NCBI GenBank assembly: GCA_018671515.1
Contig: JABHHN010000039.1
Location: 1 to 42,001, forward strand
Direction of reading: 5' to 3'
Length of the DNA stretch: 42,001 nucleotides
DNA from: an archaeon
GTDB lineage: Archaea; Nanobdellota; Nanobdellia; Woesearchaeales; GW2011-AR15
In this document: positions 2,246-13,988 of the stretch, one piece after another
Layout of the letters: each line of letters begins with the position of its first letter
Numbering within the stretch: the first letter of the stretch is position 1
Notes under the pieces: generated by a model
What the model was told of the DNA's origin: nothing
The model's database searches: none
What the model saw: only the letters and a program-made list of their open reading frames with translations
Program-made: the position numbers and the translations under genes

Positions 2246-5200
2246 ATGAAATCTAAAAATCTTATTTTATTCTTGGTTGGTTTAATGATATTATTTTCTT
2301 CTTGTATTAATGAAGAAGCTACTAGTCCAGAAATGGAAGATGAAACTTCATTTCAACAAGGTATAACCAACACTTTAAATGCTATTGAGGGGCAACCTAT
2401 TACAATTGGTACTATTGATGCATCTAATTTTGCCTCTTTGGAAAATCAAAAAATTTGCATTGTTCCAATAGTAGTAACTGAGATTACAAATCCACATAGT
2501 AGAATACCTGAAGATAGTGAATATCTTTTAACAAATAAATTTAGTAAAAAAAAATATACTTATACAGTAATAGAAGAACATTCACTTTTTGGTAATAATT
2601 TAGATCATAAAATCCCAAATATTCAAAATATGATTTTACCAAATGGTTTAAGTATTCCTAAATCAATAGATGAACAATCGGTGGGAGAAAAAAAATATTA
2701 TCAGATTTCTCCATTTATTTATAACATTTTTAAAAAAAATGGACCTTTAGAAATTCCAGTTACTTTTAGCACACAAAGAAAATTGTACAAATCAATAAAT
2801 CAAAGAGACTTACCTGAAACAGAAATTTCTCCTGCTAAAAAGATAAGTGATATAGTTTCATCTGATGAAGTTTATACGAAAACTATTGGCTTGCCACCAG
2901 AAGGGTTATGTTTTGATTTAGCTGAGATTTGGGCAATTGATGGAGATGGAAAATCTGTAGACATAAAAAATATTAATGAAGGTCCAGAAAATAAAAATTT
3001 GTTTGTAATAGAAAATTTGAATATAATAATCAATAGAGAAATTCTAAAAAAAGAAGGATTTATTGCATTAAATCCTCTTTCTGATGGATTGTTATCTAAT
3101 GAAGTACTTTTTAAAGATTATTCTACGAAAAAAGTTACAGTGAATGAAGGTTTAATTGAAATTAATAAATATGAAAAAGAAGAATTTGGGGCAGACTTTA
3201 CAGGATTTAATGAATTTGGGGTAATGATAAATAATATGTTTCATTTACCTAGTATTTTAAATACAGAAGAGAACGTAGGATTAAATCATCCAGCAAAAAT
3301 ACTTCCAATTTTTTTAAAAGCAATAGATAATGCAGGTATAATTATGGTACAACCATGTAATCCTATAAGTATAGATGTAGAAACAAGTGAACAAATAATA
3401 GATCCAAATATATATTTAGGTCAAGTAGGTACATTTACAAGTACTATTGATTTGAAAACAGAAGGTGATCCAAATAAGAGAACTTTGACATTTGAGGATA
3501 AAGATTTAGGTGCTGATTTAGTAAAATATCATTGTCAGCCAAATGATCCTGTTTCTGAAATAGAATCAATTAAATTAACTAGAACAAAAAGTATATCTGA
3601 TTTTTTAGAAAGACCTAAATCAATAATGTATCCTTATATAAATTTAGATACAAGAATAGGACAAATTATGAAAGATTCAATAGAATTAAATTCTATTTTT
3701 TATCAAAATGAAATTACAAGAGATAATCCAAATGGATTGTATCATGAAATATCTTATGTTAATGAAGATGCTCTCAATGCTAATTTTGGTGGAACTATAG
3801 AAGTTGTTGCTCCTGAAGATAAGGAATATTTAGTTAGACAAAATAAAGAAGTTGTAAATTCAATAAAGTTATCTGGTGTATTTCCAACAATAGTTCAAGT
3901 AATGCCTGAAGTTTTTATTGATTTTGATGGTAATAGTATTAGGCAAGAAATTAATCCTAATCAAGAAGTATTCAATATACAGCCAATATCTCCAAAAAAA
4001 TCTGCTGAGATGGTTAAGAAAAATATTGCGTATATTTGGAATGATCCAGAACATGTAAAAGAAATTAAATTTACTAAAGAAGAATTAGTAGAAACAAAAT
4101 ATACTCCTAATGAAGATGGTAGTGTAACTCAGAGTTCAAAAGTAGAACAATATATAGAAAAATATAGATCTGAGAGTACAAATTGGGAAACTGACCCACT
4201 AAAACCCTATTTTGATAGATTTGGGCATTTGTTTTGTTTTGAAATACAAGATAATCTGTTAGAATATAAGAATACCATTTATAATGATATTCCTGATGGA
4301 ACTGCAATTGATGTAAAAGAATCTGGATGGCTTAATCGTAAAGTAGAAGATCCAAGAAATCCTTCCAGTCGGAAGAATTTAAATATTCTTTTTGGAAAAA
4401 ATTATGAACATGATGCATATAATACAGATTTTACAAATAGTTATCCAAATAGAATTTTTGTTGTTGATGTTGAAGGATTACGTGATATAGTAAAATATCC
4501 TAACCCTAATAAAATTTTAGATGATTCAGGTGATGTAGAATTTATAGAAAAAATTATAGAAATTTCATCTGTTCATCAGAGTCCAGGAAAGCGTCCTCAA
4601 ATTGATTTTGGTAATGAAATTTCAATGCATAAATATTGTGATTTACATCCAGTTTTTTATCCAGATGATAAATTTTTTAGGGGTGAAGAAAATTTTTGTA
4701 ATCCAGAATATGAAGATTATTATAGTGACATTTTAGAATCTACTCAAGATGAATTACTTGATTTATCTAAGATTGATTTACATGTATTTTCAAGATTTTA
4801 TGCAGTTTCAGCGTTTTTTCAAAATGCTCGTCCAGACTATTTTGACACTCATTTAAAACATACAATAGATACAAATACTAAAAAATATGTAAGTAAAGAA
4901 GGATCAGATACAATTGGAAGACAAGTTGAGATATTAGATTTTTGGAAATCTGGAAATTTAGTATTTAGAATACCTGGTGAACCTAATTGTGGTGAATGGG
5001 ATGAAGGTTTAGATAATAATAATTTAGGAATAGCTGATAAAAAATTAACGTTTGAAGTGTATTATAAAAAAATAATTAATGATATACAAATAAAACTAGA
5101 TGAAGAAAAAAGATTTGCAGATGAAGCTGCAGCTGCAGCTGCTACTGAACAAGAAGAATTGGAAAAATTATATGCTATACGTCCTGATGAAAATACAATA

Positions 5201-5518
5201 TTAGGTCAGCAATGTAATCCAAGTTTTACAAATCCATTGACAATTTATAATGGAAGAATTGAAAGATCTGCTTGTTCATGTGAAAATATATGGATTCTTG
5301 CAAGAGATAAAGTAGATTGTGCACAATCCTCTCAATGTATCATATTTAATACTGAGGGATTAGCGGGTTCAAAAGAATTTGAGCAATGTGAAACATGCGT
5401 AGGTAAACCTGATCAATATATTAATGGTGTTTTTTGTTGTGGTACGGTAAATATTAATCCTTGTCCTTGTCCTAATGCACTAGGTGGTTTAGTTGCTGCA
5501 GGACATTATTGCAGATAA
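2246..5518 (+). CDS. Large putative surface lipoprotein with Cys-rich tail
   Basis: 1090 residues with no family I recognise. The N-terminus is a lipoprotein-type signal peptide: Lys-rich start, hydrophobic core, then LFSSC with Cys20 as the probable lipidated residue. The long body is mixed alpha/beta and rich in Asn, Ile and Glu. Near residue 960 there is an Ala-rich helix (DEAAAAAATEQEELEKLY), probably a short coiled coil. The last about 90 residues hold a Cys cluster (CSC, CETC, FCCG, CPCP) compatible with disulfides. The layout matches the frameshifted lipoprotein at 4-1412, and the two flank dph5, so they may be distant paralogues. A role at the cell surface is inference. Confidence 0.75.
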   Translation: MKSKNLILFLVGLMILFSSCINEEATSPEMEDETSFQQGITNTLNAIEGQPITIGTIDASNFASLENQKICIVPIVVTEITNPHSRIPEDSEYLLTNKFSKKKYTYTVIEEHSLFGNNLDHKIPNIQNMILPNGLSIPKSIDEQSVGEKKYYQISPFIYNIFKKNGPLEIPVTFSTQRKLYKSINQRDLPETEISPAKKISDIVSSDEVYTKTIGLPPEGLCFDLAEIWAIDGDGKSVDIKNINEGPENKNLFVIENLNIIINREILKKEGFIALNPLSDGLLSNEVLFKDYSTKKVTVNEGLIEINKYEKEEFGADFTGFNEFGVMINNMFHLPSILNTEENVGLNHPAKILPIFLKAIDNAGIIMVQPCNPISIDVETSEQIIDPNIYLGQVGTFTSTIDLKTEGDPNKRTLTFEDKDLGADLVKYHCQPNDPVSEIESIKLTRTKSISDFLERPKSIMYPYINLDTRIGQIMKDSIELNSIFYQNEITRDNPNGLYHEISYVNEDALNANFGGTIEVVAPEDKEYLVRQNKEVVNSIKLSGVFPTIVQVMPEVFIDFDGNSIRQEINPNQEVFNIQPISPKKSAEMVKKNIAYIWNDPEHVKEIKFTKEELVETKYTPNEDGSVTQSSKVEQYIEKYRSESTNWETDPLKPYFDRFGHLFCFEIQDNLLEYKNTIYNDIPDGTAIDVKESGWLNRKVEDPRNPSSRKNLNILFGKNYEHDAYNTDFTNSYPNRIFVVDVEGLRDIVKYPNPNKILDDSGDVEFIEKIIEISSVHQSPGKRPQIDFGNEISMHKYCDLHPVFYPDDKFFRGEENFCNPEYEDYYSDILESTQDELLDLSKIDLHVFSRFYAVSAFFQNARPDYFDTHLKHTIDTNTKKYVSKEGSDTIGRQVEILDFWKSGNLVFRIPGEPNCGEWDEGLDNNNLGIADKKLTFEVYYKKIINDIQIKLDEEKRFADEAAAAAATEQEELEKLYAIRPDENTILGQQCNPSFTNPLTIYNGRIERSACSCENIWILARDKVDCAQSSQCIIFNTEGLAGSKEFEQCETCVGKPDQYINGVFCCGTVNINPCPCPNALGGLVAAGHYCR

Positions 5519-5543: not shown

Positions 5544-5646
5544 AATTTAATTAGTATCAAATAATTAATAATTTCTTTTTTTATTCACTGGACATATCCT
5601 AACACAACCCTATTAATAAGATATATCTTTAATTTTTTATAATAAT

Positions 5647-6333
5647 ATGAAATTAAAAACTAATTTTATTAGAAATGGAAATGCTGTTTTAAAACAAGTT
5701 AAGCTTCCAGAAAAGAATGAAAAATTAGCTGAGTTAGTAGGTATAATTTTAGGTGATGGAAATATTCATGAATATAAAAAAGGAAAAAAGGCAGGAACAT
5801 ATATGATTAGAATTGCAGGAGATTATAGAAAAGAATATGATTATTTTCATAATTATGTTGGAGTTTTATTTAAGGATTTATTTGAAGTAGAACCTAAATT
5901 TCATAAGAAGAAAAATTCAAACACATATTACATTATTGTTCATAGTAAACTTATTGTAGAATATTTTAAAGAAATGGGTTTAAAACCTGGAAATAAGATA
6001 AAAAATCAATCTACAATTCTAGATTGGATTTGGGAAGAGGATAAGTTTCTTAAGGCTTGTGTTAGAGGTTTAATAGATACTGATGGATCAATTTATGAGT
6101 TTAAAACACATTGGCCAGGAATTTATCAATTAACATTTGAGAATAGAAATATTAGTTTGCTTAAAGATCTTAGAAAAGCATTTATAGAATTAGATTATAA
6201 AATATCAAGAATTTGTGGTAATAGAACAAAAGATGGAACGAAGATTTATTTGACAAGAAAAGATCAAATAGAGAAATATTTAAAAGAGATAGGATTTTCC
6301 AACACTAAACATACTATACGGATAGCCCCGTAG
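5647..6333 (+). CDS. LAGLIDADG homing endonuclease overlapping a tRNA gene
   Basis: 228 residues with two LAGLIDADG helices: LVGIILGDGNI at residues 30-40 and GLIDTDGSIY at 141-150, each with the acidic metal-binding residue. It is therefore a single-chain enzyme of this family. There is no intein or rRNA/tRNA intron around it; it is a free-standing gene. Its last codons (ATA GCC CCG TAG) are the first bases of the tRNA-Gln gene: the coding region overlaps the tRNA by 10 bp and the stop uses tRNA positions 8-10. A joint transcript could thus give an intact message or a processed tRNA, not both, because RNase P cleavage removes the stop codon. The target site is unknown; the nearby tRNA with its inserted sequence is the obvious candidate (inference). 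Confidence 0.9.
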   Translation: MKLKTNFIRNGNAVLKQVKLPEKNEKLAELVGIILGDGNIHEYKKGKKAGTYMIRIAGDYRKEYDYFHNYVGVLFKDLFEVEPKFHKKKNSNTYYIIVHSKLIVEYFKEMGLKPGNKIKNQSTILDWIWEEDKFLKACVRGLIDTDGSIYEFKTHWPGIYQLTFENRNISLLKDLRKAFIELDYKISRICGNRTKDGTKIYLTRKDQIEKYLKEIGFSNTKHTIRIAP

Positions 6334-6424
6334 TGTAGTGGCCAAATTCTTTGACGCAAGTCGGGAAGGCAATTCATCCTACCCTTTGGAGGTGGGGACC
6401 CAGGTTCGAACCCTGGCGGGGCTA
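6324..6424 (+). tRNA. tRNA-Gln (anticodon TTG) with a 28-nt insertion in the D-loop
   Basis: The acceptor stem AGCCCCG (6324-6330) pairs perfectly with CGGGGCT (6417-6423), followed by discriminator A. The T-arm is CCAGG-TTCGAAC-CCTGG. The anticodon stem is CTACC/GGTGG (one U-G pair) around the loop CTTTGGA, with anticodon TTG at 6386-6388. The 5' end resembles archaeal tRNA-Gln. The gene is 101 nt long; removing 28 nt between the D-loop GGCCAA and CAT gives a normal 73-nt tRNA. CCA is not encoded. A T6 run follows. No TATA box is evident 25 bp upstream, where the endonuclease coding region lies, so it may depend on read-through. Confidence 0.92.
6346..6373 (+). other. Probable intron in the D-loop of tRNA-Gln
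   Basis: A 28-nt extra segment bounded by the repeat AATTC. It folds as a hairpin: TTC-TT-GAC pairs with GTC-GG-GAA across a GCAA tetraloop. Exon GCC (6341-6343) pairs with intron GGC (6368-6370), leaving AAA (6344-6346) as a bulge on one side and AAT/ATT (6371-6374) on the other. This resembles a relaxed bulge-helix-bulge splice motif. Boundaries are uncertain by one base: removing 6347-6374 instead would restore a U13-A22 pair in the D-stem. Non-canonical D-loop introns are known in some archaea. Confidence 0.65.
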
Positions 6425-6438: not shown

Positions 6439-6505
6439 GACCAGCTTGGTCGATAATCTCAACTTTAGTAGAGATTATCTTTCCTGGCGGGGCTACTCTT
6501 TTTTT
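6439..6505 (+). other. tRNA-like remnant: two hairpins plus a copy of the tRNA-Gln 3' end
   Basis: Two adjacent perfect hairpins, GACCA-GCT-TGGTC (6439-6451) and GATAATCTC/GAGATTATC (6452-6479), are followed by CCTGGCGGGGCTA (6483-6495). That 13-mer is identical to tRNA-Gln 6412-6424 and is followed by a T7 run (6499-6505). The order hairpin, hairpin, half T-stem, 3' acceptor strand mimics the 3' two-thirds of a tRNA, but the T-stem 5' strand and a clean acceptor 5' strand are missing. It could be a decayed tRNA copy, an integration scar or a small RNA. The rest of the gap to 6677 is plain A+T-rich sequence. Confidence 0.55.
6483..6495 (+). repeat. Direct repeat of the tRNA-Gln 3' end
   Basis: 13-bp exact copy of 6412-6424, offset by 71 bp. 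It covers the 3' half of the T-stem, the acceptor strand and the discriminator base, the usual core of a tRNA attachment site. Confidence 0.85.
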
Positions 6506-13885: not shown

Positions 13886-13988
13886 CGCCCTTGCGGAGAA
13901 TCGAACTCCAGCCTCAAGATTTCTGCAAACTGGCCAATTTGAGCAAAGCTACCGCAATCTTGTGTTCTATCCACTATACTACAAGGGC
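13886..13988 (-). tRNA. tRNA-Arg (anticodon GCG) with a canonical intron
   Basis: Acceptor GCCCTTG/CAAGGGC, D-stem GTAT/GAAC (A-A mismatch), anticodon stem CAAGA/TCTTG, T-arm TGGAG-TTCGATT-CTCCG, discriminator G. The anticodon GCG lies at 13953-13955. The 103-nt gene becomes 72 nt after removal of a 31-nt intron at position 37/38. CCA is not encoded. A run of six T follows on the minus strand. Confidence 0.94.
13921..13951 (-). other. Bulge-helix-bulge intron of tRNA-Arg, position 37/38
   Basis: 31 nt. Exon TTGC pairs with intron GCAG to form the four-pair central helix, flanked by the three-base bulges GGT (cut after GG) and AAA (cut after the second A). Inside, CAAATT-GGCC-AGTTTG forms a hairpin. 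This is the standard substrate of archaeal tRNA-splicing endonuclease. Confidence 0.85.

Follow-up and report, generated by a model that had tools for sequence, protein, structure and literature searches.

A tRNA-Gln gene with a D-loop intron and an adjoining LAGLIDADG endonuclease gene as a probable homing element in archaea

The origin of archaeal tRNA introns at odd positions, and of split tRNA genes, is a long-standing question, and a Caldiarchaeum subterraneum locus described in 2012 hinted at mobile elements. At this tRNA-Thr(GGU) locus, a 5' tRNA fragment is followed by an inserted gene and by a complete tRNA with a D-arm intron at 24/25 (Sugahara et al. 2012, PMC3293823). The inserted gene, known from one locus in one population, was assigned by software to the DNA recombinases, and the authors proposed gain of a tRNA intron by a mobile element, with integration of the pNOB8 type (PMC3293823). 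LAGLIDADG endonucleases are involved in two further systems: mobile open reading frames (ORFs) of fungal mitochondria carry a replacement C-terminal exon (Allomyces atp6; Glomus atp6, cox2, and nad3) (PMC3630166), and bulge-helix-bulge (BHB) introns of archaeal rRNA come with LAGLIDADG endonucleases of the I-DmoI type (PMC4496867). Collaborative (trans) homing and intronless homing by free-standing endonucleases have been described for group I introns in phage genes (PMC3984707). Our search of the open-licence literature found no report of homing endonuclease genes (HEGs) partnered with archaeal tRNA introns. Here, we analyze a 42,001-nucleotide stretch of archaeal DNA (the window), together with MAGs of relatives, and we consider it probable from the sequences that an HEG, a tRNA-Gln 5' half, and a D-loop intron in the window constitute one homing element, by which the tRNA would be rebuilt with a replacement half and the cut site masked.

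The ORF at 5647 to 6333 (+ strand; 228 amino acids, ATG start, TAG stop at 6331 to 6333) is, as judged by its motifs, a free-standing two-motif LAGLIDADG homing endonuclease gene, and site-specific DNA cleavage is predicted for its product. The protein matches Pfam LAGLIDADG_3 (PF14528, E = 6.8e-9) and, weakly, I-DmoI in the PDB; its two motifs, GIILGDG and GLIDTDG, are intact with their catalytic acidic residues, and both are invariant in an alignment of seven homologs. The predicted structure is of low confidence (pLDDT of 52, based on two sequences), with an order of elements compatible with an alpha-beta-beta-alpha-beta-beta-alpha pseudo-dimer. The gene is present as a single copy in the 1.88-Mb genome. 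About 60 nt before its start lies the motif CACTGGACA (5586 to 5594, +), which is present upstream of the HEG start in most family members, with the same orientation as the HEG in about 48 of its 53 occurrences; the window genome contains 17 copies vs 4 of the reversed pattern, and the motif is possibly a promoter or operator element of the HEGs. Farther upstream, dphB (diphthine synthase; 1431 to 2186, +) is the conserved upstream neighbor of tRNA-Gln in relatives and marks the orthologous locus. A 1,090-amino-acid ORF (2246 to 5518) with a lipoprotein-like start and no match in Pfam is inserted between dphB and tRNA-Gln; in most relatives, a shorter distance separates these two genes.

The 3' end of the HEG runs into a tRNA gene recognized by Rfam (RF00005) at 6324 to 6424 with 44.7 bits, and its anticodon loop, CTTTGGA, gives the anticodon UUG and hence tRNA-Gln. 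On the basis of Rfam and ortholog alignment, the gene (+ strand) is composed of exon 1, comprising the 5' half to position 21 (6324 to 6345), a 28-nt D-loop intron at position 21/22 (6346 to 6373), and exon 2 with the anticodon, T arm, and 3' end (6374 to 6424); exon 1 would have arrived with the element as the replacement half. The first-pass annotation had placed the end of the LAGLIDADG gene at tRNA position 10, and this is correct: the two genes overlap by 10 nt (6324 to 6333), the TAG stop coincides with U8-A9-G10, and the last three residues of the enzyme (I-A-P) are tRNA-coded or nearly so. The window has a second tRNA with an anticodon-loop intron (13886 to 13988, − strand); ARAGORN detects neither tRNA, and the Rfam scan of the window returned only these two and no group I intron RNA, so a group I intron with its HEG was ruled out. 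The tRNA-Gln 3' end recurs as TCCTGGCGGGGCTA 58 nt downstream of the tRNA (6482 to 6495, +; 13 nt exact, 0.01 expected). This copy retains the usual T60, while the tRNA-Gln itself has C60, and it is probably the scar of another insertion, at a T-loop site. We also considered whether this repeat could be an alternative exon following an intron in the T loop and rejected the idea: genuine T-loop introns (e.g., L146) have a CGAA element that base-pairs with the T loop, and the repeat has none.

The 28-nt D-loop insertion reported in the first-pass annotation is real, because the syntenic tRNA-Gln following dphB in a genome of the same family (L138 in G007) lacks an intron; its alignment with the window gene shows three substitutions and a single gap, 28 nt long and placed after GGCCAA, and it thereby provides an orthologous empty site. 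With the exon bounds taken from this alignment, the spliced tRNA-Gln would be 73 nt long. The fold of the intron was then considered together with its relatives: in 35 D-loop introns at the same site, the exon tetranucleotide GGYC pairs with GRCY at the 3' end of the intron, with pair counts of 14 for C-G, 12 for U-A, and 3 for U-G, and this pairing covaries (117 of 140 cells paired vs 111.8 in shuffles, P = 0.0007), in agreement with the relaxed BHB pairing that had been proposed. Three of the four pairs of the central helix are formed in the window. Minimum free energy folding of the intron yields z = −1.6 and is not decisive alone. Removal of the insertion would be by splicing, and the window genome encodes a PF01974 splicing endonuclease (E = 6.3e-30, at G000:C45). 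In this genome, an archaeal MAG, 31 tRNAs were found, about half of them with introns as judged by length; its second tRNA-Gln (C15) contains no D-loop intron. The arrangement is not that of a classical intron-encoded HEG: the HEG is located 5' of the tRNA, and the intron is only 28 nt long.

The six closest HEG homologs in the order (57 to 41% identity over the alignment; found in the other families f60, f10, f33, f2, and f28) are all located on the same strand as, and directly upstream of, a tRNA-Gln with a D-loop intron at the same site. This repeated layout at other tRNA-Gln genes shows that the arrangement in the window is not due to chance. The ends of these HEGs range from 1 nt short of the tRNA to 53 nt into it, five of the six lying inside, and comparison of related tRNA-Gln genes, as had been suggested, thereby gave both the intronless form of G007 and the introns at six HEG loci. 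Across the order, the intron is found at this tRNA-Gln site in 7 of 7 copies with the HEG vs 35 of 144 copies (24%) without it (P = 9e-5), which upholds the earlier claim of a free-standing HEG partnered with a tRNA intron. The association is strong, not absolute. Among homologs in sister orders of the class, two (L305 and L306) adjoin intronless tRNA-Gln, and given these and the 35 HEG-free introns, the intron is neither sufficient nor required; three others (L307 to L309) adjoin a tRNA taken by eye as tRNA-Glu. HEG orthologs at unrelated loci were looked for and not found, and the same intron without the HEG, a common situation, is consistent with HEG loss after homing. At four further tRNA-Gln genes (L010, L021, L030, and L214), the intron lies near position 9/10, and HEGs of one clade lie 30 to 46 nt upstream.

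Insertion inside a tRNA gene together with a replacement half would leave duplicated tRNA halves, and such duplicates are observed. Two of the six closest loci, in G068 and G154, have all 22 nt of the tRNA-Gln 5' half repeated directly before the HEG, and G095 retains 18 nt. Displaced halves beyond the HEG match at 23 of 23 positions in L002, 22 of 22 in L006, 18 of 18 in L005, 17 of 17 in L024, and 14 of 14 in both L016 and L223, and they are near identical in L014, L222, L236, and L250; a duplicate in L017 (13 of 15) does not exceed every shuffle. The duplicated half is always the one adjoining the HEG, and it is the 3' half where the HEG is antisense to the tRNA (L014, L016, L024, L222, L223, L236, and L250). 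Clear half duplications are present in only about 11 of 63 cases, and these exceed every shuffle. In the window, the displaced 5' half is absent upstream of the HEG; by relatedness to the close homologs L002, L005, and L006, we read the window as a replacement-exon homing element whose old half has been lost. About 25 genomes share the dphB-tRNA-Gln neighborhood, the two genes being separated by 26 bp or more, and an HEG occupies the gap in three of them (window, G041, and G165). G051 has an orphan tRNA-Gln 5' half (L169) without an HEG, separated by 89 bp from the intact tRNA-Gln downstream and possibly the footprint of a lost element.

The wider HEG family was surveyed by reading 70 homologs, of which one at a contig end was set aside. 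The HEG 3' end is at or in a tRNA gene in 63 of the remaining 69 (<1 expected), with 33 sense and 30 antisense to the tRNA by inspection; at least 28 stop inside the tRNA as determined by script, and more by eye. The partnership had been called unusual; it is not a single case. The exceptions to tRNA adjacency are L225, L240, L238, L239, L232, and L244. In L225 and L240, the HEG ends at the start codon of rplK (ribosomal protein L11), and in L238 and L239, it ends at that of rnhB (RNase HII), both genes being identified by eye; we report them as putative protein-gene targets of the same HEG family. In a maximum-likelihood tree, HEGs at the tRNA-Gln D-loop form one clade (99/92), those at tRNA-Gln position 9 another (100/100), and those at tRNA-Gly another (100/99), and 39 HEGs bearing 11 target labels (tRNA identity and site, given by eye for 39 rows) require 11 changes, the minimum being 10. 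Endonuclease clades match tRNA identity and site. G068 and G154, of the same family, carry distant members of the Gln HEG clade, and HEG distribution is patchy, a combination that fits horizontal spread. Viral carriage was considered and rejected, as viral contigs hold only relatives of 27 to 29%. A conserved structured RNA of about 110 to 140 nt is found just before the HEG start in L003, L013, L217, L221, L224, L228, L231, L235, L238, L239, L246, and L251, with compensatory changes in 15 of 32 pairs. A covariance model finds 30 copies in 19 of 99 relatives, 21 of them followed by an HEG of this family, and none in the window genome; Rfam does not list this RNA in the loci scanned.

In the mechanism we propose, the endonuclease would cut an intronless tRNA-Gln at the D-loop (GGCCAA^TCATCC), and repair from an element-bearing copy would insert the HEG, the replacement 5' half, and the 28-nt intron. 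Splicing of the new 5' half to the old 3' half would keep the tRNA functional, whereas the intron would mask the cut site and so protect the gene. The original 5' half would remain upstream of the HEG and decay; two relatives still have it, and the window no longer does. Other tRNAs across the family may be invaded in this way, with antisense members replacing the 3' half, and later HEG loss would leave either an intron, as in the 35 copies without an HEG, or an orphan half, as in L169. On balance, we favor the broader view that archaeal (DPANN-like) LAGLIDADG elements are widespread, each clade occupying single tRNA sites with a replacement half-tRNA and a junction intron, and that repeated invasion followed by HEG loss is a main source of noncanonical archaeal tRNA introns and orphan halves.

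The overlap of the two genes had been given a regulatory meaning in the first-pass annotation, namely, that HEG and tRNA share a transcript from which RNase P removes the HEG stop, so that translation of the enzyme and maturation of the tRNA exclude each other. Processing of a joint transcript by RNase P would indeed remove this stop codon, and stops inside tRNAs, as noted above, recur in the family. However, a candidate tRNA promoter, the TATA-like box TTTAAA (6279 to 6284, +), is located within the HEG 3' end, 45 nt before the tRNA. Such boxes occur 18 to 62 nt upstream of 22 of 29 sense-strand partner tRNAs vs 13% of control windows in the HEG body (P = 3e-14), an excess that may partly reflect a conserved peptide, K-Y/F-x-K-E-I-G, and in which a few of the 29 tRNAs were assigned automatically. 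It is probable that the tRNA is transcribed from a promoter of its own within the HEG 3' end, in which case enzyme and tRNA would not exclude each other. Furthermore, the stop position ranges from 1 nt before the tRNA (L003) to beyond the tRNA 3' end, and roughly half of the family is antisense, where the link is impossible. Mutual exclusion thus fares poorly and is, in our estimate, highly improbable; the stops inside the tRNA look like a side effect of the element ending right at the gene.

Recombinase integration of the att type, as for the Caldiarchaeum tRNA-Thr, would turn the tRNA halves into att repeats and the LAGLIDADG gene into cargo or an unrelated gene. The anatomy of 5' half, gene, and intact intron-containing tRNA is alike (PMC3293823), but the sole gene between the repeats is the LAGLIDADG HEG with both motifs conserved, no integrase or recombinase of the SSV/pNOB8 type is found there, and the HEG clades track the target, which makes this explanation very unlikely. 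HEG and intron could also be independent, the HEGs aiming at conserved tRNA genes in which D-loop introns are common, and some introns perhaps having arisen as host protection against HEGs. Such independence would accommodate the HEG-free D-loop introns and the intronless partners of L305, L306, L023, and L028; it is nevertheless very unlikely in view of the bias at tRNA-Gln (7 of 7 vs 24%) and of the position-9 clade, whose introns lie at their own shared site. We retain the homing element with a replacement half-tRNA and a masking intron as the preferred reading.

This replicated, phylogenetically structured set of loci offers an agent (target-specific HEGs), a mechanism (replacement of half the gene together with an intron that masks the site), and orthologous empty sites, and a single purified enzyme with a tRNA gene lacking the intron would suffice to test the origin of odd-position tRNA introns. 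The locus shares with the Caldiarchaeum tRNA-Thr locus the succession of half-tRNA, gene, and intron-bearing intact tRNA, whereas LAGLIDADG endonucleases, many tRNAs, both orientations, and an order-wide occurrence set the present elements apart. In the fungal mitochondrial ORFs, too, an endonuclease gene moves together with a substitute for part of the host gene, and the native part is pushed to the far side, but those ORFs are found at protein genes and have no BHB intron; here, tRNA halves on archaeal chromosomes are concerned, usually with a junction intron. The LAGLIDADG enzyme family and BHB splicing recall archaeal rRNA introns, in which the HEG resides inside the intron, while here the intron is 28 nt long and the HEG lies outside the tRNA. 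Finally, as in collaborative homing, an HEG beside an intron could drive co-conversion of both, although no replacement gene half is present in that system.
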